DNA of 33,171 bases from Bacillota bacterium. GTDB taxonomy: Bacteria > Bacillota > Clostridia > Saccharofermentanales > UBA5734. The notes under the pieces were generated by a model. That model was not told the origin of the DNA, made no database searches, and saw only the letters and a list, made by a program, of their open reading frames with translations. Both the position numbers and the translations under genes were made by a program. Positions 3,799 to 18,910 of this stretch are shown piece by piece; the first letter of the stretch is position 1, and each line of letters begins with the position of its first letter. The stretch lies in the NCBI GenBank assembly GCA_029548445.1, contig JAKPNJ010000003.1:1-33171 (forward strand). Direction: 5' to 3'.

Positions 3799-5807
3799 GG
3801 AACGGATTCTTCCGGGTCGCCTGCGTCGTGCCGGAAACAGCCCCCCTGGACTGCCGGGGGAACGCGGAGGTCCTGGCCCGGTGCGCCGCGGCCGCCGCGG
3901 AAGCGGAGGCGGGGCTCGTCCTCTTTCCCGAGCTCTCCCTGACCGGTTACAGCTGCGGCGACATGTTCCACGGCGGCTACCTGGCCGATGCGGCCCTGGA
4001 CGCGCTGCTCCTCCTTCGGGACGCCACCCGGGACCTGTCGCTGGCGGTCGTGGCGGGACTCCCGCTGCGGGTGGACGACGGCCTGTACAATTGCGCCGCC
4101 GTACTCCAGTCCGGCCATGTCCTCGGCCTGGTGCCCAAGTCCTACCTGCCGGAATACGCCGAGTACCACGAACCCCGTTGGTTTCGGCGGGCCCGGGATG
4201 CCGGCCGGACAGCCGTCCGGATCGGGGGGGATCCGGTGCCCTTCGGCGCCGGCCTGCTGTTCGAGGATGCGGAAGCCGGTGCCGTATTCGGCGTCGAGAT
4301 CTGCGAGGATCTCTGGGCTCCGCTGCCGCCGTCCGCGGGGATGGCCCTGGACGGGGCGACCCTCCTCCTCAACCTCTCGGCCAGCAGCGAACAGGTCGGG
4401 AAGGCCGACTACCGGCGGAAGCTCGTCGAGAGCCATTCCGGCGCCCTGTCCGCCGCCTATGCCTATGTTTCCTCCGGCCCCCTGGAATCCACCGCGGACG
4501 TGGTCTTCGGATCCCATGTCCTCGTGGCCGAAAACGGGCACCTCCTGGCCGAGGCGGGACCCCTCTCGTCGCCGGGGGACTCCGTGCCCGTCCCCGGCGG
4601 CCGGATGACCGTCGTCGACCTGGATCTCCTGCGGATGCGCCGGGAACGGGCCCGGCTGACTGTCTTCGGCGACTGCGCCGCCGACCGGGTCCGGGACCGG
4701 CAGGGACCCGGTCCCCGCCGGGTGGCCTTTTCCGCCTCCGGAGGCCCCGGGACCCCGGCGGATGTGCGCCATCCGACGGACCCGTCCCCCTTCGTCCCGT
4801 CGGATCCCGGACAGGTGGCTGCCCGCTGCCGCGACGTGTTCGCCATCCAGGTCGCCGGCCTGGCCCGCCGCCTCCGGGCCGCGGCGCCATCCGCCTCCCC
4901 GGCGGCCATCGTGGCCCTGTCCGGCGGGGTCGACTCGGCCCTGGCGCTCCTGGTGGCCGAGGGGGCCTTCCGGGCCATCGGGCGACCGGTGGCCGACCTC
5001 CTGGCCCTGACCATGCCGGGACCCGGCACCACCGGCAGGACTCGCGGCAACGCCGGCAGCCTGGCGGACGCCCTGGGCATCCCCCTTCGGGAGATTTCCA
5101 TCGCCGCCGCCGTGACGGCCCACCTGGACGACATCGGCCATGACGGGACCCTTGATGTGACGTACGAGAACGCCCAGGCCCGGGAGAGAACCCAGATCGC
5201 CATGGACCTGGCCAACCGGTCCGGCGCCCTGGTCATCGGCACTGCGGACCTCTCCGAGCTATGCCTGGGCTTTACCACCTACAACGGCGACCACATGTCC
5301 ATGTACGGCGTCAACGCCGGCGTGCCCAAGTCCCTCGTCCGGCCCATCCTGGCGACCCTGGCGGAGGACCGGCCGGAAATCCGCGACACCCTGTCGGACA
5401 TCCTGGCGACGCCGATTTCCCCGGAACTCCTGCCGCCCGGCCCCGACGGGACCATCCGGCAGCAGACCGAGCACATCGTCGGGTCCTATGACTGGAACGA
5501 TTTTTTCCTGTACCACTTTCTCCGGTGGGGAGAGCCTCCCGACCGGATCCTGTTCCTGGCCCGCCGGGCCTTTCCGGACATCGCCCCGGACGCCCTGGCC
5601 GAAGCCCTGGAGAACTTCCTCGGACGCTTTTTCCGCAACCAGTTCAAGCGATCCTGCCTGCCGGAGGGACCCAAAGTCGGGTCGGTCTCCGTCTCCCCGC
5701 GGGGGGACCTGCGGCTGCCCGGGGACCTGGACGGCACACCCTTCCGGGATGCGGTGGGCCGGAAGTCAGCCGGTCCGGGGAGCGAAGGGCCGGACGGGCC
5801 CGCATGA
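3795..5807 (+). CDS. nadE: Glutamine-dependent NAD+ synthetase
   Basis: The product amidates deamido-NAD+ to NAD+ using glutamine and ATP. The start is the GTG overlapping the dapL stop (GTGA), with GAGGAGG about 8-9 bases upstream; this gives 670 residues, typical of the two-domain form. The N-terminal nitrilase-like glutaminase domain has Glu46 (LFPELSLTGYSC), Lys115 (LVPKSYLPEYAEYHE) and Cys170 (GVEICEDLW), the Glu-Lys-Cys triad. The C-terminal synthetase domain has the PP-loop SGGVDSALALL starting at about 376, GTADLSELCLGFTTYNGDH, and the late KRSCLPEGPKVGSVS segment. A Pro/Gly-rich stretch at about 300-340 links the domains. It is probably cotranscribed with dapL through the overlap. 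Confidence 0.94.
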   Translation: MRNGFFRVACVVPETAPLDCRGNAEVLARCAAAAAEAEAGLVLFPELSLTGYSCGDMFHGGYLADAALDALLLLRDATRDLSLAVVAGLPLRVDDGLYNCAAVLQSGHVLGLVPKSYLPEYAEYHEPRWFRRARDAGRTAVRIGGDPVPFGAGLLFEDAEAGAVFGVEICEDLWAPLPPSAGMALDGATLLLNLSASSEQVGKADYRRKLVESHSGALSAAYAYVSSGPLESTADVVFGSHVLVAENGHLLAEAGPLSSPGDSVPVPGGRMTVVDLDLLRMRRERARLTVFGDCAADRVRDRQGPGPRRVAFSASGGPGTPADVRHPTDPSPFVPSDPGQVAARCRDVFAIQVAGLARRLRAAAPSASPAAIVALSGGVDSALALLVAEGAFRAIGRPVADLLALTMPGPGTTGRTRGNAGSLADALGIPLREISIAAAVTAHLDDIGHDGTLDVTYENAQARERTQIAMDLANRSGALVIGTADLSELCLGFTTYNGDHMSMYGVNAGVPKSLVRPILATLAEDRPEIRDTLSDILATPISPELLPPGPDGTIRQQTEHIVGSYDWNDFFLYHFLRWGEPPDRILFLARRAFPDIAPDALAEALENFLGRFFRNQFKRSCLPEGPKVGSVSVSPRGDLRLPGDLDGTPFRDAVGRKSAGPGSEGPDGPA

Positions 5808-5934
5808 ACCGCAAGGCAATCACCTGTCAAGTCTGGTCAGGAAATCAAATCCGTGGTACCTTCTGTTGAAGAGTCCACATGCAGGCTGACGACAATGGGC
5901 GTGACAACCGGGAGATGCGGAAGGAGAACCCTGG

Positions 5935-6975
5935 ATGGAATCGTATCGGGTGATGCCCGCCGGAACCCATGAGATCCTGGTTGGAAGCGGGATCGCATTC
6001 CGCCTGCCGGAACTGCTGGCCGCCGGGTCCCGGCCCGTGGGCGCGCCGGGCCGGATCGCCCTGCTGACCGACCGGACCGTGGCCGGCCTTTACCTGGCCC
6101 GATGCCAGAAGGCCTTCGCCGACGCAGGACTGGACGTGCGGCCCATTGCCATCGACGGCCAGGAGAACGGGAAAACCCTGGATGCCGTCCGTTCGGTCTT
6201 CGAGCAGATGGAGGACATGTCCTTCGGGGACAGCGACCGGCTGGTCGCCCTGGGCGGCGGGGTCGTCTGCGATGTGGCGGGTTTCGCGGCTGCCGGCTAT
6301 CGGGGCGGATGTCCCCATGTGATCCTGCCGACCACCCTCCTGTCCATGGTCGATTCCAGCATGGGCGGCCGGTGCCAGCTGAATTTCCGGGGCCACAAGA
6401 ATCTCCTGAGCCTGCCGTCGGCGCCGGCCCTGGCCGTGGTGGATCCGTCCTTCCTGCAGACCCTGCCCAAGCGCCACCTGGCGGCCGCCATGTCCGAAAT
6501 CGCAAAATTTGCCCTGCTGGACGACCCGTCCCTCCTGGATCTCCTGGAGAAGGTCCCCTTTCCAGCGGAAGAGGTCATCGTCCGCGCCCTCGCGGCACGG
6601 GCCCGGCTCCTGGGGGCGGCTTCCGGCGTCCCGCACGAGGACTCGCCGCTGTCCCTTGGCCACGCAGTGGGCCATTCCATCGAAAGCCACTTCCGCTTCC
6701 TCCGTTTCCTTCATGGCGAGGCCGTCGCCCTGGGGCTCCTGGCCGTCTGTTCGAGCCCGGGGCTCCGGGACCTGTTCGGACGCCTGGGACTGCCCGTCCA
6801 GTTGGACGGCGTAACGGCCGAAACCCTGGTCCGGCGGATCCTGCGGGACTATCCCGGCCATGCGGGCACCCTGAGGATGGTCCTCCTCGACCGGCCCGGT
6901 TCCTACCGGGTCGAGACGGTGGCGGCCCCGCAGGCCGAGGGATTCCTGTCGGCCCTGCTGGCCCGCATCCTCTAG
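5935..6975 (+). CDS. 3-dehydroquinate synthase-like sugar-phosphate cyclase with altered active site
   Basis: The 346-residue protein has the DHQS fold signature: LVALGGGVVCDVAGFAAAGY (about 103-122), PTTLLSMVDSSMGG (132-145), SEIAKFALL (187-195), LGHAVGHSIE (241-250) and FLHGEAVALG (258-267). The three metal ligands of the family, Glu188, His243 and His260, are present, as are the aspartate of VDSS and Lys191. Several positions that bind substrate in classical AroB differ. The GGK lysine is Arg146, the Arg and Asn of the R-x3-N-x-GH motif are Asp236 and Ser240, and the DKK motif near the C terminus reads Asp-Tyr-Pro (305-307). No other shikimate gene is adjacent. It may be a divergent DHQ synthase or a cyclase for another sugar phosphate, so no gene symbol is given. 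The ATG has GGAAGGAG about 9 bases upstream. Confidence 0.8.
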   Translation: MESYRVMPAGTHEILVGSGIAFRLPELLAAGSRPVGAPGRIALLTDRTVAGLYLARCQKAFADAGLDVRPIAIDGQENGKTLDAVRSVFEQMEDMSFGDSDRLVALGGGVVCDVAGFAAAGYRGGCPHVILPTTLLSMVDSSMGGRCQLNFRGHKNLLSLPSAPALAVVDPSFLQTLPKRHLAAAMSEIAKFALLDDPSLLDLLEKVPFPAEEVIVRALAARARLLGAASGVPHEDSPLSLGHAVGHSIESHFRFLRFLHGEAVALGLLAVCSSPGLRDLFGRLGLPVQLDGVTAETLVRRILRDYPGHAGTLRMVLLDRPGSYRVETVAAPQAEGFLSALLARIL

Positions 6976-6984
6976 CCGTCCGCC

Positions 6985-8331
6985 ATGTCGCGGCCTGTGA
7001 CCCGCCTGCTGTTTCGGGAGGATTCCTATCTCCTGTCGTTCCGGGGCAGGATCGTCGATGTCCGCCCGGCCGATCACCCGTACCTGTTCGTCGCCCTGGA
7101 CCGCACGGCCTTCTTTCCGGAGGGCGGCGGCCAGCCCTGGGATACCGGGTGGATCCGGATCGATCCGTCGATCGATCCGTCCGACGATCCCGATGTCCGG
7201 TTCGGCGTGGACCAGGTCCTGGAGGGCCCCGGGGGACCCTGGCATCGGCTGGCCCTGCCGCCTGGTTCGGGCGTCGCGGCCCGGGAAGCCTGGGCCCGAC
7301 CGGAATCCCTACCCGGCCGACAGATCCTGGGACAGGTCGACCCGGTCCGCCGCACGGACCATGTCCAGCACCACGGCGGACAGCACCTTCTGTCCGAAGT
7401 CCTGTGGAAGACCCGGGGGATTGCCACGCTGGCCTTCCACCTGGGGGACGGGGACGCCGCCATCGAGGTCTCCGCTGACCGGCTGTCCCGGGAAGAACTG
7501 GATGCCCTGGAGGACGAGGTCAATGACCGGATCCGTCGGGGCGGCCCTGTCCGGACCTTCGTGACGGACCTGCAGACCGCCCGGGGGCTGCCCCTGCGGC
7601 GGCCGCCGCCCCCGGAGGACCCGGTCCGGATCGTGGAAATCGTGGGCCTGGGAATGGCCGCCTGTTGCGGAACCCATCCCGACGACCTGTCAAGGATCGG
7701 CCTGCTTCGGATCACGGAAGCCGAACGGATCCGGGGCCGTCTCCGGCTCCACTTCCTGTGCGGCCGCCGGGCCTTCCTCGCAGCTCGGTCCGACCTGCAG
7801 GCCGCCGGCGAGGCGGCCGCCCGGATGTCCGGCCCGGTGGCCCGGCTGCCTGCGCTGGTGGATGGCCTCCGGAGCCAGGTCCGGACCCGGGAGGCCGAAG
7901 CGGCCGAGGTCCTGGCAGAACTGGCCCGGCTGCGGATTGGCCAGGCCCTGGCCGCCATCGGGGAAGCCGAGGGACCGCGGATCCTGTCCCTGCCGCTGGA
8001 GGATATCCGGCGGATGGACCTGTACGGGGATACGGCCATGGCCATGGCGGCCGGGACCGATCTCGCCGCCGTGGTCCTGGCAGCGGAGGACCGGGACGGG
8101 ATCCGGTTCCAGGTCCGGCGGACCGGTCCGGCCGCAGGCGGACCGGACCTTCGCGGACTGATGAAGGAACTGGCCGCGGTGCGTCCGATCCGGGGCGGCG
8201 GCAGCCCGGACCGGGTCCAGGGAATCCATGTCCTGGAAGGCATGTCCGCCGGCGCACTGGCGGACCTCCTTCGGCAGGCCTGCGCCCGGTTTATCGGCCG
8301 GTGGGGGCCGGGGTCGGCGTCGGGGGCCTGA
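6985..8331 (+). CDS. Alanyl-tRNA editing protein, AlaX-like with DHHA1 domain
   Basis: Free-standing AlaX proteins hydrolyse mischarged Ser- or Gly-tRNA(Ala). The 448-residue protein begins with a short beta domain that includes FFPEGGGQPWDTG (about 39-51). It then has the editing-domain zinc motif HHGGQHLL (HxxxH, about 130-137) and the second zinc pair in CCGTHPDD. A C-terminal segment from about 270 with a helical linker and GSPDRVQGIH resembles the DHHA1 domain of long AlaX proteins and of AlaRS. There is no aminoacylation domain, so it is an editing factor, not AlaRS. The ATG lies 9 bases after the previous stop without a clear Shine-Dalgarno, suggesting coupling. The 3' end overlaps the converging M28 gene by 41 bases. 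Confidence 0.85.
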   Translation: MSRPVTRLLFREDSYLLSFRGRIVDVRPADHPYLFVALDRTAFFPEGGGQPWDTGWIRIDPSIDPSDDPDVRFGVDQVLEGPGGPWHRLALPPGSGVAAREAWARPESLPGRQILGQVDPVRRTDHVQHHGGQHLLSEVLWKTRGIATLAFHLGDGDAAIEVSADRLSREELDALEDEVNDRIRRGGPVRTFVTDLQTARGLPLRRPPPPEDPVRIVEIVGLGMAACCGTHPDDLSRIGLLRITEAERIRGRLRLHFLCGRRAFLAARSDLQAAGEAAARMSGPVARLPALVDGLRSQVRTREAEAAEVLAELARLRIGQALAAIGEAEGPRILSLPLEDIRRMDLYGDTAMAMAAGTDLAAVVLAAEDRDGIRFQVRRTGPAAGGPDLRGLMKELAAVRPIRGGGSPDRVQGIHVLEGMSAGALADLLRQACARFIGRWGPGSASGA

Positions 8332-9715: not shown

Positions 9716-9739
9716 GGATTTGGAAAGGGAGGGATGCCC

Positions 9740-10207
9740 ATGATCCTCGGATTGGACGCATGGATTTTCTGGCTGATCCTGATGGTGTTGTTCCTGGCTG
9801 TCGAGGCGGCCACGGCCGGCCTCGTCAGCATCTGGTTCGCCGCCGGTTCCCTGGTGGCGTTGCTGGCCGCCGCCTTTGGAGCCGGTCTTTGGGTGCAGGT
9901 ACCCCTGGCGATCGTGGTCTCGCTGGCGACCCTGGTCGTCTTCATCCGGCTGCGCCATGACCGGAGTTTCGCCCACAGCGCCACGGTTCCGACCAATGCG
10001 GACCGCTGGATCGACGCCGAGGCGGTGGTGATCGAGGCGGTGGACCCCATCCGGGGGACCGGCCAGGTCAAGGCCATGGGCCAGGTCTGGAGCGCAGTCA
10101 GCCAGGACGGCAAGCCGGTCCCGGTCGATGCCGCCGTCCGGATCGTGGAAATCCGGGGGGTCCGGGCCGTGATCGTCCCCATGGAACCGCCCGCGCCCGG
10201 CGGCTGA
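9740..10207 (+). CDS. NfeD-like membrane protein
   Basis: Short NfeD-family proteins partner with SPFH/stomatin proteins in membrane organisation; their molecular role is not well defined. The 155-residue product starts with two to three hydrophobic helices (about 7-22, 25-45 and 50-66: WIFWLILMVLFLAVEAATAG, then further Ala/Leu/Val-rich segments). It ends with a soluble beta-rich domain (about 80-150) of the NfeD OB-fold type. Two in-frame ATGs occur at 9734 and 9740. The GGGAGG Shine-Dalgarno (9727-9732) is one base from the first and seven from the second, so 9740 is preferred. The SPFH gene follows 89 bases downstream, the standard NfeD-SPFH pairing. Confidence 0.85.
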   Translation: MILGLDAWIFWLILMVLFLAVEAATAGLVSIWFAAGSLVALLAAAFGAGLWVQVPLAIVVSLATLVVFIRLRHDRSFAHSATVPTNADRWIDAEAVVIEAVDPIRGTGQVKAMGQVWSAVSQDGKPVPVDAAVRIVEIRGVRAVIVPMEPPAPGG

Positions 10208-10296: not shown

Positions 10297-11220
10297 ATGC
10301 CCGATGTCACATGGATCGTCCTCCTCATTCTCGCCGCCCTGGCGGTCGTCATCCTCTCCCGCAACGTCCGGATCGTGAACCAGGCCTTCGCCATGGTGGT
10401 GGAACGCCTTGGCAAGTACCATGTCACCTGGGGAACCGGCTTCCATGTCAAGACGCCCTTCATTGACCGGATCGTGAAGATCGTGTCCCTGAAGGAAAAG
10501 GTCGCCGATTTCCAGCCCCAGGCCGTCATCACGAAGGACAACGTGACGATGCAGATTGACACAGTGGTCTTTTTCCAGATTACGGACCCAAAACTCTACG
10601 CATACGGCATCGAGAACCCCATCCAGGCCATCGAGAACCTCTCCGCCACCACCCTCCGAAACATCATCGGCGACCTGGAGCTGGACCAGACCCTGACTTC
10701 CCGCGAGGTCGTCAATACCAAGATGCGCCTGATCCTCGACGAGGCCACGGACGCCTGGGGCATCAAGGTCAACCGGGTGGAACTCAAGAACATCATTCCG
10801 CCCAAGGAGATCCAGGTCGCCATGGAGCGCCAGATGAAGGCCGAGCGCGAGAAGCGCGAGAATATCCTCCGGTCCGAGGGCGAGAAACAGGCCCAGATCC
10901 TGGTGGCCGAAGGCGAGAAGCAGGCGGCGATCCTCCGGGCCGAGGCCAAGAAGGAAGCCCAGATTCGGGAAGCGGAGGGCGAGGCCGAGGCCATCATGAA
11001 AGTCCAGCAGGCCCGGGCCCGGGGCCTTGACATGATCAAGTCGGTCCAGGCGGACAGGGCCCTGATCGCCCTGCGCAGCCTCGAGGCCCTGGAGAAGCTG
11101 GCCGACGGCAAGTCGACCAAGATCATCGTACCCTCCGAGATCCAGGGGCTGGCCGCCCTGACCGCCTCCCTGCGGGAGCTGGCCGTGGACGACGCTGCCC
11201 AGGCGGCTCCGAAGACCTGA
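10297..11220 (+). CDS. SPFH/Band 7 (stomatin-like) membrane protein
   Basis: The 307-residue protein has one N-terminal transmembrane helix (about 6-21), then an SPFH/Band 7 domain starting VNQAFAMVVERLGKYH and including GFHVKTPFIDRI and VITKDNVTMQIDTVVFFQI. A long charged helical region (about 180-245) follows, with EGEKQA-type repeats that form the coiled coil used for oligomerisation. This is the QmcA/stomatin layout, scaffolding membrane microdomains with NfeD partners. The ATG has GAAAGGAAGG about 7 bases upstream. The NfeD-like gene lies upstream and the ATPase gene begins 22 bases after the stop, so the genes are probably one transcript. A role in membrane integrity is known for the family; any link to the ATPase is inference. 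Confidence 0.9.
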   Translation: MPDVTWIVLLILAALAVVILSRNVRIVNQAFAMVVERLGKYHVTWGTGFHVKTPFIDRIVKIVSLKEKVADFQPQAVITKDNVTMQIDTVVFFQITDPKLYAYGIENPIQAIENLSATTLRNIIGDLELDQTLTSREVVNTKMRLILDEATDAWGIKVNRVELKNIIPPKEIQVAMERQMKAEREKRENILRSEGEKQAQILVAEGEKQAAILRAEAKKEAQIREAEGEAEAIMKVQQARARGLDMIKSVQADRALIALRSLEALEKLADGKSTKIIVPSEIQGLAALTASLRELAVDDAAQAAPKT

Positions 11221-11242: not shown

Positions 11243-12451
11243 ATGCTGCTGGGATTCCGTATCCGGAACTTCGGCCCCCTGGTCGATGTCGCCATCGGCC
11301 TGGACCCGGCCGGTGTTCCCCGGGGGAGCCGTTCCTGTGCCATGACCCCGGTCTCGGCCCTGATCGGGCGGAACGCCACCGGGAAAACGGCCGTACTGGA
11401 CGGGCTCTCGTTCCTGTCCGATTGCCTGCGGCTGGGTGTCCCGGCCGCGTCCCTGGAGGGCGACCGGGGGGGCTATACCCGCCTTCGGACCCATGACGCG
11501 ACCGATCCCGTCTCCTTCGATGTCTACCTGGATGCCGGAGATCCGGATGCGCCCGTGGGCTATCGCCTCGAGCTGGATTGCGATGCCCAGGGCCGTCCGT
11601 CCGTCCGATCCGAGAAGGCCTGGTTCCTGAAGACCGGCCAGGCCTTTTTCAGGCTGGACCAGGGGACGGGCCACGTGCTGGAGCGGCCCGGGGAAGCGGG
11701 GGAGAACCGGCGGGACGCCGGCGTGGCGAACCTCAAGCATCCGGCCCTGTCCGCATACGGGCGCCTGAAGGAGCACGGGCGCCTCCGGGCGATCTTCGAT
11801 GACATCAGCCGCTGGTATTTCTGCCGCTTCGATCCCCGGCTCGCCCGGGAACCGGCCCATGCGGGCGGCCAGCACCATGTCAGCAGTACCGGCCACAATC
11901 TCGGCAACGTCATCCAGTATCTCGAGGATGAGGACCCCGAGTCCCTCCGGGTCATCCTGGACAGGATCGCCGACCGGATTCCCGAGATCGGCGGCCTGCA
12001 TTCCCGAAAAACCCACGACGGCCACCTGGTGCTCCAGGTCGGCGACGACTCCCTGGACGATCCGTCGGTCCTCCGGCGGCTGTCCGACGGAACCCTCAAG
12101 ATGTTCGCCCTCCTCCTGCTCCTATCGGATCCCTCCCCGCGGCCCATGATCTGCCTCGAGGAGCCGGAGACCGGCCTGCACCACGAAATGCTGGATACCC
12201 TGGCCATGGAGATCCGCCACCACGCGGCGGGCATCCGCCGGGGACGGCCCGGTGCCCAGGTCCTGTTCACGACCCACAACCCCTTCCTGCTCGATTCCCT
12301 GCGCCCGGACGAGGTCTGGGTCCTGGAGCGACCCGGGGAGGGCGCCCCCAGGGCCCGGTGCATCGGGGCGGATCCCGTGGTCCAGAGCCTGTACAGCCAG
12401 GGAATCGGCCTCGGCGCCCTGTGGTACAGCCACCACTTCGAGGGGATGTGA
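11243..12451 (+). CDS. AAA/ABC-type ATPase of the AAA_21 group, partner of the DUF4276 gene
   Basis: The 402-residue soluble ATPase begins MLLGFRIRNFGPLVD, the usual beta-strand opening of RecF/SMC-like AAA_21 proteins. Walker A is GRNATGKT at about 42-49, an ABC-signature-like RLSDGT lies at about 279-284, Walker B MICLEEPE at about 302-309, and a switch His in TTHNP at about 343-347. A split ATPase head with about 200 intervening residues fits this family, found in OLD-like and other two-gene systems. The stop overlaps the GTG start of the next gene (ATGTGA). Pairing with DUF4276 is a recurrent arrangement in bacteria with no settled function, and a defence or DNA-maintenance role is inference. 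The gene lies between SPFH and hemW without a mobile-element signature. Confidence 0.85.
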   Translation: MLLGFRIRNFGPLVDVAIGLDPAGVPRGSRSCAMTPVSALIGRNATGKTAVLDGLSFLSDCLRLGVPAASLEGDRGGYTRLRTHDATDPVSFDVYLDAGDPDAPVGYRLELDCDAQGRPSVRSEKAWFLKTGQAFFRLDQGTGHVLERPGEAGENRRDAGVANLKHPALSAYGRLKEHGRLRAIFDDISRWYFCRFDPRLAREPAHAGGQHHVSSTGHNLGNVIQYLEDEDPESLRVILDRIADRIPEIGGLHSRKTHDGHLVLQVGDDSLDDPSVLRRLSDGTLKMFALLLLLSDPSPRPMICLEEPETGLHHEMLDTLAMEIRHHAAGIRRGRPGAQVLFTTHNPFLLDSLRPDEVWVLERPGEGAPRARCIGADPVVQSLYSQGIGLGALWYSHHFEGM

Positions 12452-13128
12452 ACCGGCTGGTGCACCTGGAAGTGCTGGTGGAGGACCGCTCGGGAAAAAT
12501 GTTCCTCGATCCCCTGCTCCGGCGCCTCCTGGCCGGTGTCGGCCGGGACGTGGAGGTGGCGATCCGGCCCCACCGGGGCAAGGGCCGACTGCCCGCCGAT
12601 CCATCCGCCCGGCCGGATCGGTTCGCCAGCGGCCTGATGGACCTGTTGCCCGCCCGGATGCGGGCCTATTCCGCGGTCTTCGCCCCGGGGACCCACGGCA
12701 TCGTGGTGGTCCTGGATTCGGACGAGGAAGACCCGGAAACGGTCCGAACCCGCATCGACCGCCTGTCGCGCCCGTATCGGAACGGCCTCCCGGTGGTCAT
12801 CGGCATTTCGGTGGAGGAGATGGAGTCCTGGATGCTGGCAGACCGGGCCGCCATCCTGTCGGCCTTTCCCCGGGCCGATCCGCGGGTCCTGGACGCCTAT
12901 TCGCAGGACTCCGTCTGCGGCACCTGGGAACTCCTGGCCAGGGCGATCCTGGGGGACGAGGCCGAAGACCTGATCGAGCTGGGGTATCCGGCGGTGGGCC
13001 GCTACAAGGCCGAGTGGGCGACCCGCATCGGCGTCCACGCCGATCCCGACCGGATTCGCTCGCCCAGTTTCCTCCGCTTCCGGCGGGACCTGGACAGGCT
13101 TCTCGAAACCGGAGCCCCGACTGCATGA
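12448..13128 (+). CDS. DUF4276 family protein (TOPRIM-like), partner of the upstream ATPase
   Basis: The GTG at 12448 overlaps the ATPase stop and gives 226 residues. Features typical of DUF4276 are the opening LEVLVEDRSGKMFLDPLL, the acidic strand IVVVLDSDEEDPETV, SVEEMESWMLADR, AYSQDSVCGTWELL, and the C-terminal block EWATRIGVHADPDRIRSPSF. The N-terminal Glu and the D-x-D-E-E-D cluster resemble the metal-binding acidic residues of TOPRIM nucleases and primases, so a metal-dependent nucleic-acid function is plausible but unproven. The stop overlaps the hemW ATG (ATGA), so ATPase, DUF4276 and hemW are probably translated in sequence. The family is recognised with good confidence; the biochemical role is unknown. 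Confidence 0.8.
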   Translation: MNRLVHLEVLVEDRSGKMFLDPLLRRLLAGVGRDVEVAIRPHRGKGRLPADPSARPDRFASGLMDLLPARMRAYSAVFAPGTHGIVVVLDSDEEDPETVRTRIDRLSRPYRNGLPVVIGISVEEMESWMLADRAAILSAFPRADPRVLDAYSQDSVCGTWELLARAILGDEAEDLIELGYPAVGRYKAEWATRIGVHADPDRIRSPSFLRFRRDLDRLLETGAPTA

Positions 13129-14372
13129 GACCATCCGGTCCGGTTTTCCCCCGGTACCGGCCCGACGGAACGGTGGGGGCCGCGTTCTCCGCCTATCTTC
13201 ATGTGCCGTTTTGCGTCCGGAAGTGTGGGTACTGCGACTTCCATTCGCTGGCCATCGGCGACCCCCGGTCCGATCCGGACGGACCGGCCGCAAGGCAGAT
13301 GGCGGCCTATGCCGAAACCGTCCGGGAGGAGATCCGGCGGACGGCGGACGCAATGGAGCCGTCCGAACGCGTGCCGCTCGAGACTGTCTATTTCGGCGGC
13401 GGAACGCCCACCCTCCTGCCTCCGGCCACCCTGGCCGCCATCCTGGACACCCTGGGGACGGCCCTGGGACTCGCGGACGACGTCGAGGCCACCCTGGAAG
13501 CCAATCCCGGCACCCTGCGTCCGGAGGACTTCCGCCAGCTCAGGGAGGCCGGGTTCAACCGGGTCAGCCTGGGCCTCCAGGCCATCCAACCCTTCCTCCT
13601 TCGCCGCCTGGGCCGCATCCACGACGCAACCCGGTTCGACGAGGCCGTCCGCGACGCCCGGGCGGCCGGCTTCCGAAACATCTCCGCCGACCTGATGGCC
13701 GGCATCCCGGGACAGACCCCCCGGCACATGGCCGACAGCGTGGACCGGGCCCTGGCCGCCGGCGTGACCCATGTCTCCGTCTATTCCCTGACCCTGGAGC
13801 CCGGAACCCCCTTCCACACCCGCTACGCCTCCCGCCCCGATGCGCTGCCGTCGGAGGACCAGGAGCGGGCAATCTACCGGACCGCCATGGACCGGCTGGC
13901 GGCGGCGGGCCTCCCGGCCTACGAGATCAGCAGCGCGGCCCGGCCGGGATTCCGGTGCCGGCACAACGAGGCCTACTGGATGGCGGAAGGGTATCATGGC
14001 TTCGGTCCTGCGGCCCATGGGTACCGAAGCGGCATCCGGTACTCGAATCCCCGGGACATGGATCCCTGGCGCGACCGGGTCCGGCAGGGCGCAGTCCGTC
14101 CGGAGGACGACCCGGACGGGGTCCGGATCAACCGGGACGAGGCCATGGACGAGGCCATGTGGCTGGGATTCCGACGGCTGGACGGCGTGTCGGCCGACAC
14201 GTTCCGGGCCCGCTTCGGGACCTATCCCGAGGAGCGGTATGGCGACCGGCTCCGGCAGCTCCTCCGCCGAGGCCTGCTGGAGCGGGACGGGGCGCCTGAT
14301 CCCGCCGGTTCCTATCGGCTGTCCGGGCTGGGCCTCGACCTGGCGAACCAGGTGTTCCTGGAATTCGTGTAG
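13125..14372 (+). CDS. hemW: Radical SAM heme chaperone / coproporphyrinogen dehydrogenase-like protein HemW
   Basis: HemW binds heme and a [4Fe-4S] cluster and is thought to deliver heme to respiratory proteins; it is often misnamed as oxygen-independent coproporphyrinogen oxidase. The 415-residue protein has the cluster motif C-x3-C-x2-C at Cys30, Cys34 and Cys37 (HVPFCVRKCGYCDFHS), the SAM-contacting FGGGTPTLL, EANPGTL, and NRVSLGLQAIQP, with the C-terminal HemN-type domain (EAMDEAMWLGFRRLDGV). HemW retains the three cysteines but lacks the extra fourth Cys of true HemN. The ATG overlaps the DUF4276 stop. In many Bacillota hemW directly precedes hrcA; here a sugar module of about 4.4 kb separates them. 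Confidence 0.92.
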   Translation: MRPSGPVFPRYRPDGTVGAAFSAYLHVPFCVRKCGYCDFHSLAIGDPRSDPDGPAARQMAAYAETVREEIRRTADAMEPSERVPLETVYFGGGTPTLLPPATLAAILDTLGTALGLADDVEATLEANPGTLRPEDFRQLREAGFNRVSLGLQAIQPFLLRRLGRIHDATRFDEAVRDARAAGFRNISADLMAGIPGQTPRHMADSVDRALAAGVTHVSVYSLTLEPGTPFHTRYASRPDALPSEDQERAIYRTAMDRLAAAGLPAYEISSAARPGFRCRHNEAYWMAEGYHGFGPAAHGYRSGIRYSNPRDMDPWRDRVRQGAVRPEDDPDGVRINRDEAMDEAMWLGFRRLDGVSADTFRARFGTYPEERYGDRLRQLLRRGLLERDGAPDPAGSYRLSGLGLDLANQVFLEFV

Positions 14373-14396: not shown

Positions 14397-15617
14397 TCAG
14401 TCGCCGGCATCCGGCAGGGTGGCCCCCGTCCGAAGCCATTGCTCCAGCACCAGGGCCACGCCGCCCCAGAGGGGCGCGTCGGCCCCCAGGGCTGCCGGGC
14501 GAATGGGGATCCGCTTGATGCCATGCTGGAGCATGGCGGCGTTGACGGCCTCTTCCAGTTCCGGAAGCAGCAGGTCCGCCGCCTGGGCGCCCTCGTGGCC
14601 CAGCAGGACCAGTTCCGGGTCCAGCAGGTTGGCCAGGTCGGCCAGGGCCTCCGCCAGGTGGCTGCGCAGGAGGCGAATCCGGCCGGCCGCCAGTGCGTCT
14701 CCCCGCCGGGCACCGTCCAGCAAGCCATCCCAGGAGTCGGCCCCGGTCTCCCGAAGCAGGACCGGGACGCTGGCCACAACCTCCAGGCACCCCCGCCGTC
14801 CGCAGGGGCAGGGAGGACCCGACGGATCCAGGATCATGTGGCCCGCCTCCCCGGCGAATCCCGACGCCCCGGTAAAGAGCCGGCCCCCGGACAGGAACCC
14901 GGCGCCGATTCCGTGGGTGATCCCGAGATACAGCACGGTCCCGTGGTCCCGTGCGGCGCCGAACAGGGATTCCGCCAGGACGGCGGCGTTCATGTCGTTG
15001 TCCGCCCGGACGGCCAGGCCGGATTCCGACCGGACCCAGTCGGCGATCGGCAGGTCGGCCAGGCCGTAAAAGTCGGGGGGATCCAGCAGGATGCCCGCCT
15101 GCCGGTCCAGGGGACCGATGGAGGCGATGCCGATTCCGAGGGGCCGGGGCGCTCCCGATCGACCGAACGGCGCCATGCCGTCCCGGACCAGGTTGGACAG
15201 CAGCGCCCGGAAGGCCTCCCTGTCCGGCCGGGGCGGGAAGGAGAGGAACCTCCGATCCATAACGGCGCCCGAGAGGTCGGCGGACAGGAGGGCCATGCCA
15301 TCCCGGGAAAGATAGAGACCCAGCAGCGCCAGGCGTCCCGGCGCCAGGGACAGGCGCCGGGGCATCCGGCCGCCGGCAGGCCGCGGGGCGGCACCCCGGG
15401 CGGCCGGTTCCTCCTCCAGGAGTCCATCCTCACGCAGTCCCCGCAGGATCGTGCTGACCGTCATCCTGGACAGGCCGGTCCGTTCGGCCAGCTCGGCCTG
15501 GGAATCGGCCCGCCCCGCGGCCAGCAGGCGCAGCAGGGCGGCGCGGTTGCGCCCCCGCAGCGATTGGAGGTTGAGACCCGCCGGGGCCGGGGATGGCGGG
15601 ACGGGAAACCGGGGCAT
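14397..15617 (-). CDS. ROK-family transcriptional repressor (NagC/XylR type)
   Basis: The 406-residue protein has an N-terminal winged helix-turn-helix (about 17-70; SQAELAERTGLSRMTVSTIL is the recognition part). A sugar-kinase-like ROK domain follows, with DNDMNAA (Asp208 at the catalytic position), ITHGIGAG, GEAGH (His260) and the zinc motif CPCGRRGC (Cys270, 272, 277). ROK repressors bind a sugar or sugar phosphate and release DNA. It is divergent from the isomerase and dehydrogenase-kinase genes, so it probably controls them and itself. An in-frame GTG at 15623 directly abuts the Shine-Dalgarno GGGAGGA, so the ATG at 15617, about 7 bases away, is preferred. It converges on hemW with a 24-base gap and no visible terminator. 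The effector cannot be read from sequence. Confidence 0.87.
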   Translation of the reverse strand: MPRFPVPPSPAPAGLNLQSLRGRNRAALLRLLAAGRADSQAELAERTGLSRMTVSTILRGLREDGLLEEEPAARGAAPRPAGGRMPRRLSLAPGRLALLGLYLSRDGMALLSADLSGAVMDRRFLSFPPRPDREAFRALLSNLVRDGMAPFGRSGAPRPLGIGIASIGPLDRQAGILLDPPDFYGLADLPIADWVRSESGLAVRADNDMNAAVLAESLFGAARDHGTVLYLGITHGIGAGFLSGGRLFTGASGFAGEAGHMILDPSGPPCPCGRRGCLEVVASVPVLLRETGADSWDGLLDGARRGDALAAGRIRLLRSHLAEALADLANLLDPELVLLGHEGAQAADLLLPELEEAVNAAMLQHGIKRIPIRPAALGADAPLWGGVALVLEQWLRTGATLPDAGD

Positions 15618-15649
15618 CGGCACTCCTCCCAGGGGGTGGTTCCGGAAAC

Positions 15650-15655
15650 ATTGTA
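15650..15655 (-). promoter_or_regulatory. Candidate -10 hexamer for the ROK repressor gene
   Basis: TACAAT on the - strand (5 of 6 matches) stands about 33 bases before the preferred ATG. No convincing -35 is seen at 16-18 bases, so this is tentative. Confidence 0.28.
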
Positions 15656-15695
15656 CCGTCCCGCCAGCCGAAAGGCCATAGGTTGATAAGAAGTC

Positions 15696-16358
<663 letters not shown>

Positions 16359-16411
16359 GGCCGGCGTCACGCCGGAGGGACAGCCGGCAGGATCGGGACA
16401 GGAGGACCCGG

Positions 16412-18808
16412 ATGGAAAACAGGGATCATGATTCCGGTCGGCGCCCCAGGGCGGTGATGATCGGCGCCGGCAACATCGGGCGCGGGTTCATCGGCGAGAC
16501 CTTCAGCCGGTCGGGCTATGACGTCGTGTTCGTGGATGTGGACGAGGCCCTGGTGGCCGCCCTGAACCGGGAGGGCCGTTATCCCGTCCGGGTGGTGTCG
16601 GACGAGGGCGATACCGAAACCCTGGTGGGACCGGTCCGGGCCGTATCCGGCCGGGATCCCGAGGCCGTGGCCCGGGAACTCGCGGAAGCCGACCTGGCCG
16701 CCACGGCGGTGGGCGCCGGGATCCTGCCCCGGATCGCCCCGGTGCTGGCCAAGGGGCTCCTGCTTCGCTGGAGCCGCGGAAACGGGCGGCCCCTGGACCT
16801 CCTGATCTGCGAAAACCTGATGGACGCCGACCGGATCCTGCGGGACCTGGTGGCCTCCCACCTGCCGCCCGGGGACCGGGAGCGCCTCGACCGGTCGGTG
16901 GGCTTCGTGGAGGCGTCCATCGGCCGGATGGTGCCGGTCATGACCCCGGAGCAGAAGGCGGAGAATCCCCTGCTCGTCTGTGTGGAAGCCTTCCGCACCC
17001 TCCCGGTGGACCGGGATGCCTTCCGGGGCCCCATTCCCGCTCTTGCGGACCTGGAACCCTTCAGCCCCTTCGGTTACCATCTCCGGCGCAAGCTTTACAT
17101 CCACAACATGGGCCATGCCCTGGTCGCCTACCTGGGGGCCCTGTCCGGACACGAGCGGATCCGGGATGCCGTCGAAGACCCTGAAATCCGGTCCCTTGCG
17201 GAAGCCGCCATGCACGAGTCGGCCGACGCCCTGTCCGCTGAGTACGGCGTGGACCGGGCCATCCTGCGGGACCATGTGGCGGACCTGCTGCACCGGTTCG
17301 GCAACCGGAAGCTGGGCGACACCATCGACCGGGTCGGCCGGGACCCCATGCGGAAACTGGCGGCCGACGACCGCCTGGCCGGCGCCGCCCGGTACTGCCT
17401 CGATCGCGGGGTCTTCCCGAGGGCCATCGCCGTCGGCCTCGCCGCCGCACTCCTCGCCAGGCAGGAAGACGACCCGGGATCCGCGGAGCTGGCCGCCCGC
17501 CTGTCGCAGGAAGGGCCCGAAGGCTTTCTCCGCTCCCATTGCGGCCTCGACGACCCCGGTCTCCTTCGGCATATCCTGGCCCTCGGAACCGCCCTGGCCG
17601 GCCTTCGCCAGGTCCGGTCCGCTCCCCCGCCCATGGTGGCCGGACATCTCTGCCTCGACATCAGTCCTGCGTTCCGGGACACCGGGGCCCGGGCCCTGTC
17701 CGACCTCCTCGTTCCCGGCAAGCTGGTCGATGTGGGCCAGGCCGTCCTGTCGACGGGCGGCGCCGTGTCCAATACGGGGCTATCCATTCGGCTCATGGGC
17801 CTGCCGGTCCGGCTGTCCGGCAAGGTGGGGCCCGACCTTTTCGGCGAGGGAGTGGGACGGACCCTGGACCGGTACGGCGGCCGGGAAGGCCTGATCGTCG
17901 ATCCCGAGGCCAGGACTTCCTACTCCATCGTCATCGCGCCGCCTGCCGTGGACCGGATCTTTCTCCATGATCCCGCCGCCAACGACACCTTCGGCGCCGA
18001 CGACCCGGACGAGGCCATGCTGCGGGAAGCCCCCCTCTTTCATTTCGGATATCCGCCCCTGATGCGGCGCATGTACCGCGACGACGGCGACGAACTGGTC
18101 CGGCTGCTCGCCCGGGTGCGGTCCGCAGGCGCCGCGGTCTCCCTGGACATGGCCCTGCCCGATCCCGCCTCGGAGGCGGGCCGCGCCGACTGGGCGGCCA
18201 TCCTGGCCCGGGCCCTGCCCCTGACCGACCTGTTCCTTCCCAGCCTGGAGGAATTGTTGTTCATGCTGGACCGTCCGGCCTTCCAGCGACTTCGGGAGGC
18301 AGGCGGCGACCCGGGCGGCCGATTCGGTCCGGAGGACCTGTCCGCCCTGGGGGACCGGCTTGTGCGCATGGGTGTCGCCATGGCCGCCATCAAGCTGGGC
18401 ACCCGCGGGTACTACCTGCGAACGGCCGGACCGGACCGGCTCCGGCACATGGGCCGCCTGTCCATGACGGATCCCGTCGCCGCCGCCCGCTGGGCCGACC
18501 GGGAACTCCACCACGAATGCTTTGTCGCGGAGCCCGTCGTATCCGCCTCGGGCGCAGGAGACGCCAGCATCGCCGGCTTCCTCTCCGGGCTGCTGACGGG
18601 ACTGGGGCCCGAGGATTGCCTTGCGCTGGCCAATGCGGCGGGGTCCCTCAATGTCCTGGTCCGGGAATCCGTGGGCGGCGTGAAGCCCCTGGTTGCCACC
18701 CTGGTCCGGATCCCGGGATGGGAGACGATCCCCGCCTGGCGGGAGTCCTCCTTCTTCGTTCCGACCGGTGCCGGAGCCTGCCGCAGGGGGCCCCGGGACC
18801 GGGCCTGA
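16412..18808 (+). CDS. Fusion protein: mannitol-1-phosphate 5-dehydrogenase-like domain plus PfkB-family carbohydrate kinase
   Basis: One uninterrupted 798-residue frame holds two enzymes. Residues about 13-400 are a mannitol dehydrogenase-type domain: Rossmann motif GAGNIGRGFIGETF at 18-31, LICENLMDADRIL at 131-143, and the catalytic-lysine motif KLYIHNMGHA with Lys227. Residues about 408-780 are a PfkB kinase: GHLCLDISPA, GGAVSNTGLS, LSGKVGPDLFGEGV, NDTFGADD, LFLPSLEELLFML, and ASGAGDASIAGF with the catalytic Asp717. A short Pro-rich joint (APPP, 404-407) connects them. Inference: the kinase phosphorylates fructose or a related ketose and the dehydrogenase interconverts the ketose phosphate with a polyol phosphate, so the isomerase upstream would feed it. 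A good Shine-Dalgarno (GGAGG) precedes the ATG. Base composition matches the neighbours. The two domain calls are firm; the substrates are not. Confidence 0.85.
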   Translation: MENRDHDSGRRPRAVMIGAGNIGRGFIGETFSRSGYDVVFVDVDEALVAALNREGRYPVRVVSDEGDTETLVGPVRAVSGRDPEAVARELAEADLAATAVGAGILPRIAPVLAKGLLLRWSRGNGRPLDLLICENLMDADRILRDLVASHLPPGDRERLDRSVGFVEASIGRMVPVMTPEQKAENPLLVCVEAFRTLPVDRDAFRGPIPALADLEPFSPFGYHLRRKLYIHNMGHALVAYLGALSGHERIRDAVEDPEIRSLAEAAMHESADALSAEYGVDRAILRDHVADLLHRFGNRKLGDTIDRVGRDPMRKLAADDRLAGAARYCLDRGVFPRAIAVGLAAALLARQEDDPGSAELAARLSQEGPEGFLRSHCGLDDPGLLRHILALGTALAGLRQVRSAPPPMVAGHLCLDISPAFRDTGARALSDLLVPGKLVDVGQAVLSTGGAVSNTGLSIRLMGLPVRLSGKVGPDLFGEGVGRTLDRYGGREGLIVDPEARTSYSIVIAPPAVDRIFLHDPAANDTFGADDPDEAMLREAPLFHFGYPPLMRRMYRDDGDELVRLLARVRSAGAAVSLDMALPDPASEAGRADWAAILARALPLTDLFLPSLEELLFMLDRPAFQRLREAGGDPGGRFGPEDLSALGDRLVRMGVAMAAIKLGTRGYYLRTAGPDRLRHMGRLSMTDPVAAARWADRELHHECFVAEPVVSASGAGDASIAGFLSGLLTGLGPEDCLALANAAGSLNVLVRESVGGVKPLVATLVRIPGWETIPAWRESSFFVPTGAGACRRGPRDRA

Positions 18809-18883: not shown

Positions 18884-18910
18884 TTAGCACTCGAGACAAA
18901 TGAGTGCTAA
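18884..18910. promoter_or_regulatory. CIRCE operator (HrcA binding site)
   Basis: Exact TTAGCACTC and GAGTGCTAA arms are separated by 9 bases (18893-18901), identical to the CIRCE consensus. It lies just downstream of the -10 and 39 bases before the hrcA ATG, so the whole heat-shock operon, including hrcA, should be repressed by HrcA. Confidence 0.98.

Follow-up and report, generated by a model that had tools for sequence, protein, structure and literature searches.

An ABC-type ATPase gene and a DUF4276 gene lie directly in front of hemW in the window (the whole 33,171-nucleotide stretch of DNA that was analysed), and in its order this pair is close to fixed as a part of the core genome, a status that is newly described here. 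The order was inferred to be Saccharofermentanales from named relatives, and the host lineage is common in the rumen (gut) and in sediments. Defence systems are usually recognised by their patchiness and mobility; here, genes annotated as defence are inherited in the manner of core genes and keep one position in a housekeeping locus. This core-like inheritance of a defence-type pair before hemW suggests that a nuclease of the defence type was recruited to a permanent task in the cell. If this is true, the pair would provide a clear example from bacteria of a nuclease of the anti-phage type turned to cellular use, and the uncharacterised DUF4276 family would gain a testable system. Automated HEC-01 calls in rumen metagenomes may then mistake housekeeping genes for immunity.

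Gene layout at the hemW locus

The pair and hemW are encoded on the forward strand. The ATPase gene (11243-12451) is an ORF of 402 residues that matches Pfam AAA_21 (106 bits, cut-off 27), the PADLOC HEC-01A model PDLC04182 (354 bits, residues 3-400 of 402) and the PADLOC AAA_21/AriA model (101 bits). The DUF4276 ORF (12448-13128) has a GTG start and encodes 226 residues. It matches the PADLOC HEC-01B model PDLC04205 over residues 5-217 of 226 (196 bits), and its score against Pfam PF14103 (27.3 bits, E = 5e-6) is slightly under the curated cut-off of 30.2. The third gene, hemW (13125-14372), encodes a 415-residue member of the radical SAM heme chaperone family (TIGR00539, 254 bits, cut-off 205). 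Both junctions are 4-base overlaps, GTGA at 12448-12451 between the ATPase and DUF4276 genes and ATGA at 13125-13128 between DUF4276 and hemW. An earlier sequence-only reading had described an ATPase-DUF4276 pair coupled to hemW through these two overlaps. The overlaps are confirmed, and the Pfam and PADLOC matches and the recurrence of the three-gene order in relatives identify the pair as real. We propose that the pair and hemW would be made together through translational coupling.

An SPFH/Band_7 gene (10297-11220, forward strand) ends 22 bases upstream of the ATPase gene and is preceded by a gene for its NfeD-like partner (9734-10207, forward strand), both detected with Pfam. The pair thus sits within a housekeeping run with SPFH upstream, a setting that the sequence-only reading had rightly called unusual for defence. 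Downstream of hemW, a perfect CIRCE operator (18884-18910, forward strand) precedes hrcA, and hrcA, dnaK and dnaJ, the usual Firmicutes chaperone run, lie further downstream in the window. CIRCE is placed between hemW and hrcA in 82 loci of relatives and was found upstream of the ATPase gene in none of the loci examined. The ATPase-DUF4276-hemW genes are therefore a separate unit, and their membership of the heat-shock (HrcA/CIRCE) regulon was rejected.

The hemW and hrcA genes are adjacent in most relatives. They are separated in the window by a sugar-acid gene block (14397-18808), a lineage-specific insertion of sugar metabolism genes. The block encodes a ROK-family regulator on the reverse strand, a lyxose-isomerase-like protein and a 798-aa fusion of mannitol-dehydrogenase-type and PfkB kinase domains. 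Elsewhere in the window, a 448-aa protein (6985-8331) has weak matches to the tRNA_SAD and AlaRS domains and is possibly an AlaX-like editing protein or a DHH phosphoesterase protein.

Distribution, synteny and inheritance

DUF4276 was detected in 33 of 58 relatives' genomes and the ATPase likewise in 33, with hemW alongside. The named matches came from Saccharofermentans, Mageeibacillus, Fastidiosipila and other Clostridia. Across the order, DUF4276 is present in 137 of 188 genomes (83 of the 106 good ones) and in 20 of 30 genera, nearly always as a single copy. A class-wide sample of 391 genomes yielded 13 matches, all from the order. Family f2, the one with the best sampling, has DUF4276 in 108 of about 115 genomes (a count read from genome numbering). 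Seven f2 genomes lack it; six of these also lack hemW, and those assemblies are 74-86% complete. Genome G460 of this family is a true absence of the pair, with coaD followed directly by hemW. The type I methylase HsdM, used as a yardstick, is patchy in the order (40 of 106 good genomes), as are PF14103 across the phylum (17/300) and RloB in the class (18/148).

The neighbourhood survey that the sequence-only reading had called for shows the three-gene arrangement recurring in nearly every relative with DUF4276, so the arrangement is not due to chance. Of 80 named loci, 78 have all three genes with their order and strand unchanged. The hemW gene comes next after DUF4276 and shares its strand in 78/80 named loci and in 35/37 genome loci, two sets that partly overlap. 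The DUF4276-hemW junction across the order is most often a one-base TGATG overlap. Three departures from the arrangement were seen. Locus L114 (5968-8605) has the ATPase-DUF4276 pair without hemW, and the next gene resembles the Orn/Lys/Arg decarboxylase family. An ATPase-like gene lies between DUF4276 and hemW in one genome (loci L133 and L198), and the intervening ORF in L133 (685-1941) begins like a DUF4143-type ATPase. In locus L196 (genome G029, 5372-7344), hemW is inverted with respect to the ATPase-DUF4276 genes and is still 3 bases from DUF4276. Independent genomes show the identical arrangement, one of them a single-contig assembly (G025), and an assembly artefact is unlikely. Recent mobile insertion into this genome was rejected by the synteny across the order.

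Upstream genes differ between families. The pair is preceded by NfeD-SPFH in three families; in the fourth it is preceded by recG-rsmD-coaD, which were identified by eye in the sequences, plus a coiled-coil gene. These differences leave hemW as the constant partner of the pair, and SPFH as a constant functional partner is unsupported, one of the four families having other upstream genes. Where the pair is missing, hemW stands by itself, often as the gene immediately after SPFH, and the junction that remains after a loss, SPFH-hemW or coaD-hemW, is clean. The pair is absent from entire genera that keep hemW, which means that it is not essential in the order. Clean losses are as expected of a dispensable module and count against a standing role.

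The pair is inherited vertically in the order like core genes. Its presence and absence require about 9 changes on the hemW tree, and these are grouped by genus. Copies from the order split from outside relatives in the DUF4276 and ATPase trees (support of 91 and 100), and the families largely hold together in both, with the exception of f1. The ATPase tree disagrees with the hemW tree inside f1, so some transfer may have occurred there. The window ATPase is placed near the root, unlike its hemW, which may reflect either slow evolution or transfer. DUF4276 distances correlate with those of hemW (r = 0.76; maximum of 1000 permutations, 0.22) and of dnaK (r = 0.73; maximum of 1000 permutations, 0.23). 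Evolution is slower in DUF4276 than in hemW (median distance of 1.97 versus 2.69). A dN/dS of 0.05-0.23 in close pairs, similar to or below that of hemW, indicates that DUF4276 is under purifying selection.

Motifs and predicted folds of the two proteins

The ABC/OLD-type motif set is complete in the window ATPase, as the sequence-only reading had stated. Walker A is GRNATGKT (residues 42-49), the signature is LSDG (residues 280-283), Walker B with the catalytic Glu is ICLEEPE (residues 303-309, with EEPE at 306-309) and the switch His is H345 in TTHN. The AF2 model of the ATPase (pLDDT 89) matches PtuA, GajA (8x5i), OLD (6p74), Rad50 and SMC heads in Foldseek with E below 1e-9. A search by sequence found no solved homologue of the ATPase at E ≤ 0.01.

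Alignment of the order's ATPases indicates that the intact motifs of the window copy are an exception, a point that was absent from the sequence-only reading, as was the order-wide vertical conservation. Among 89 unique copies from the order, the catalytic Glu is retained in only 7, and SDGTLK occurs together with EEPE only in the window copy and in genome G006. The catalytic motif is ETPD in 61 of the 89, and others have ESPD, ENPD, DQPD and so on. No SxG signature was seen in family f2 copies, in which the exact signature positions are alignment-dependent. The Walker A Lys is retained in 89/89 copies and the switch His in 88/89. ATPases of relatives outside the order have the SDG signature and the catalytic Glu intact in 11 of 11 cases (EEPE in 10, EESE in one). 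Decay of the signature and the catalytic Glu coupled with retention of Walker A and the switch His suggests that the ATPase in most of the order may have shifted from hydrolysis to nucleotide sensing, and the window copy would keep the ancestral, hydrolysis-competent motifs. Walker B mutants of Cran1, an archaeal ATPase-nuclease, are unaffected (PMC12796447), so loss of the catalytic Glu does not prove loss of hydrolysis.

The acidic residues of DUF4276 are invariant or nearly so. D90, D92, E123, E124 and E126 are present in 100% and E12 in 99% of 101 sequences from the order, and E12, D90, D92 and E126 are also kept outside the order wherever aligned. E12, D90, D92, E123/E124 and E126 probably form a TOPRIM-type metal site. 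The AF2 model of DUF4276 (pLDDT 92, pTM 0.89) has predicted strands at residues 6-11, 36-41, 83-90 and 116-121 and the layout of a TOPRIM domain: a β-α-β-α-β-α-β core with E12 after β1, D90xD92 after β3 and E123/E124 at β4. Foldseek comparison of the model with the PDB gave no match at E ≤ 1e-3; the TOPRIM of topoisomerase IV (3ksa) scored E = 0.1 with TM = 0.29, and no convincing TOPRIM match was found in the PDB and BFVD. No convincing solved homologue was found by sequence. Profile alignment with RloB is weak (P = 7e-4 to 2.5e-3) and in register at the DxD and ExExW positions. The yardstick alignment of RloB with the OLD-TOPRIM profile (P = 5e-4) is about as weak. The sequence-only reading had called DUF4276 TOPRIM-like. 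The layout of the model and the weak RloB match, taken with the lack of a significant PDB match, make a TOPRIM-like fold likely and not proven, and DUF4276 is a putative nuclease.

Relatives outside the order and proposed function

Relatives of DUF4276 outside the order are 32-36% identical, each has an ATPase in front, and no hemW was found beside these pairs. One related pair lies between antiterminator and lysis genes in the prophage of Rahnella plasmid PRA1 (locus L184, 6715-8657), a typical cargo position. A second adjoins mobF on a conjugative Pseudomonas plasmid, and others occur in two viral contigs and one phage record. These locations indicate mobility in the wider family, in contrast to the fixed version of the order. 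Both proteins of the window match the models of HEC-01, a PADLOC candidate defence system, over their full length and in the same arrangement of ATPase then DUF4276. The PDLC04182 and PDLC04205 matches and the adjacency of the genes place the pair in the HEC-01 protein families. The known HEC-01 relatives travel as mobile cargo and have kept their ATPase motifs intact, whereas the order's pair is fixed, vertical and hemW-coupled and its ATPase motifs have mostly decayed. Its locus is a housekeeping one across the order, with neither a defence-island nor a mobile setting. A HEC-01 defence role of the order's pair is thus unsupported by gene context, and the family membership stands. The sequence-only reading had held that the pairing has no agreed function. 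The literature search agreed insofar as it found, among the papers that it covered, no functional study of HEC-01, which the one relevant paper merely lists as a predicted system, and no paper naming DUF4276; the pairing itself already has a name, HEC-01 in PADLOC. The PADLOC HEC-01A/B labels seem swapped for two models: the ATPase is matched by PDLC04144, which is labelled B, and DUF4276 by PDLC04143, which is labelled A.

Four further known groups resemble the pair. PARIS likewise has two genes, an ABC ATPase (AriA) followed by a TOPRIM-type protein, and its AriB is a separate TOPRIM partner that can cut tRNA (PMC12409363). No sequence relation between DUF4276 and AriB (DUF4435) was detected, no AriB model was among the PADLOC matches of DUF4276, and the order's pair lacks a mobile-element setting. 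Gabija GajA and OLD share the match of an ABC ATPase fold with a TOPRIM-type nuclease, but they are single fused polypeptides with a different TOPRIM family. Assignment to Gabija was not supported, since the GajB helicase is absent and the neighbours are SPFH and hemW. Bound ATP gates the TOPRIM of GajA without hydrolysis, and hydrolysis is reported to have been lost with nucleotide-dependent control kept (PMC12796447). Cran1, a class 5 OLD protein of the Sulfolobales, is an ATPase-nuclease found throughout its order, with a role that is apparently essential and unrelated to viruses (PMC12796447). The order's pair resembles it in being order-wide and vertically kept and in its proposed cellular function. 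Cran1 differs in being an archaeal fused protein that has conserved active sites, is expressed with the cell cycle, is apparently essential and has no hemW link. AbiL and RloA-RloB also place an AAA_21-type ATPase gene before a small TOPRIM-like protein, but the RloB-DUF4276 profile similarity is weak and RloB is patchy in the class.

The explanation that we favour, with confidence slightly above even, is that the pair is an ATP-gated nuclease module of the HEC-01 kind that passed from the mobile defence pool to a vertically inherited core pair with a standing cellular role. The module would consist of two subunits, the ABC-type ATPase and a TOPRIM-like DUF4276 nuclease. The ancestor of the order would have acquired the pair from the mobile pool, and the pair would have become fixed in front of hemW. 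It would serve the stress response or the quality control of nucleic acids and would not be a swappable anti-phage system. An ATP-bound ATPase dimer may keep the DUF4276 subunits inactive, and loss of ATP or a stress ligand may release or open the nuclease. The nucleic-acid target would then be cut with the help of two metal ions bound by E12, D90 and D92 (with E123/E124/E126). This target may be DNA or, given that AriB can cut tRNA, RNA, and the DNA-maintenance role raised in the sequence-only reading is conjectural. Gating by ATP occupancy is suggested by the retained and lost ATPase motifs and the GajA precedent. The claim that the pair is a domesticated, hemW-coupled ATP-sensing nuclease in which the ATPase hydrolysis motifs were lost repeatedly, a bacterial two-gene counterpart of Cran1, is tentative and falls a little short of an even chance. 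The mobile cargo status of the closest relatives and the PADLOC defence label both count against a cellular role.

There is a real, if minority, chance of the main alternative, in which the pair continues to act as HEC-01 defence against phages and has merely become fixed at one chromosomal site in the order. The ATPase would sense infection and unleash DUF4276 on host or phage nucleic acid, like AriA and AriB of PARIS. The full-length HEC-01A/B matches, the relatives in a prophage, a conjugative plasmid, viral contigs and a phage record, and the intact motifs of the window ATPase all point this way, and loss in whole genera suits dispensable defence. A defence role fits poorly with a near-universal single copy at one hemW locus that diverges in step with housekeeping genes. 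No defence genes were found neighbouring the pair, the ATPase motifs have decayed unlike those of the mobile relatives, and type I R-M has a much patchier distribution across the same genomes.

It is improbable that the pair serves HemW directly, for example as a switch or quality-control module in the handling of heme or Fe-S cofactors, with DUF4276 acting on hemW mRNA or a tRNA to regulate HemW. That hemW is the constant neighbour, mostly through the one-base TGATG junction, is consistent with such a service, as is an adjacency that outlasts the hemW inversion in L196. However, translational coupling is by itself enough to maintain adjacency, many genera retain hemW in the absence of the pair, L114 has the pair without hemW, and the domains suggest nucleic-acid rather than cofactor chemistry. 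Passive retention, in which the pair hitch-hikes in the operon with no strongly selected function, would suit the clean losses in several genera but is very improbable given the purifying selection on DUF4276 and metal-site residues that are invariant in about 100 sequences from four families.
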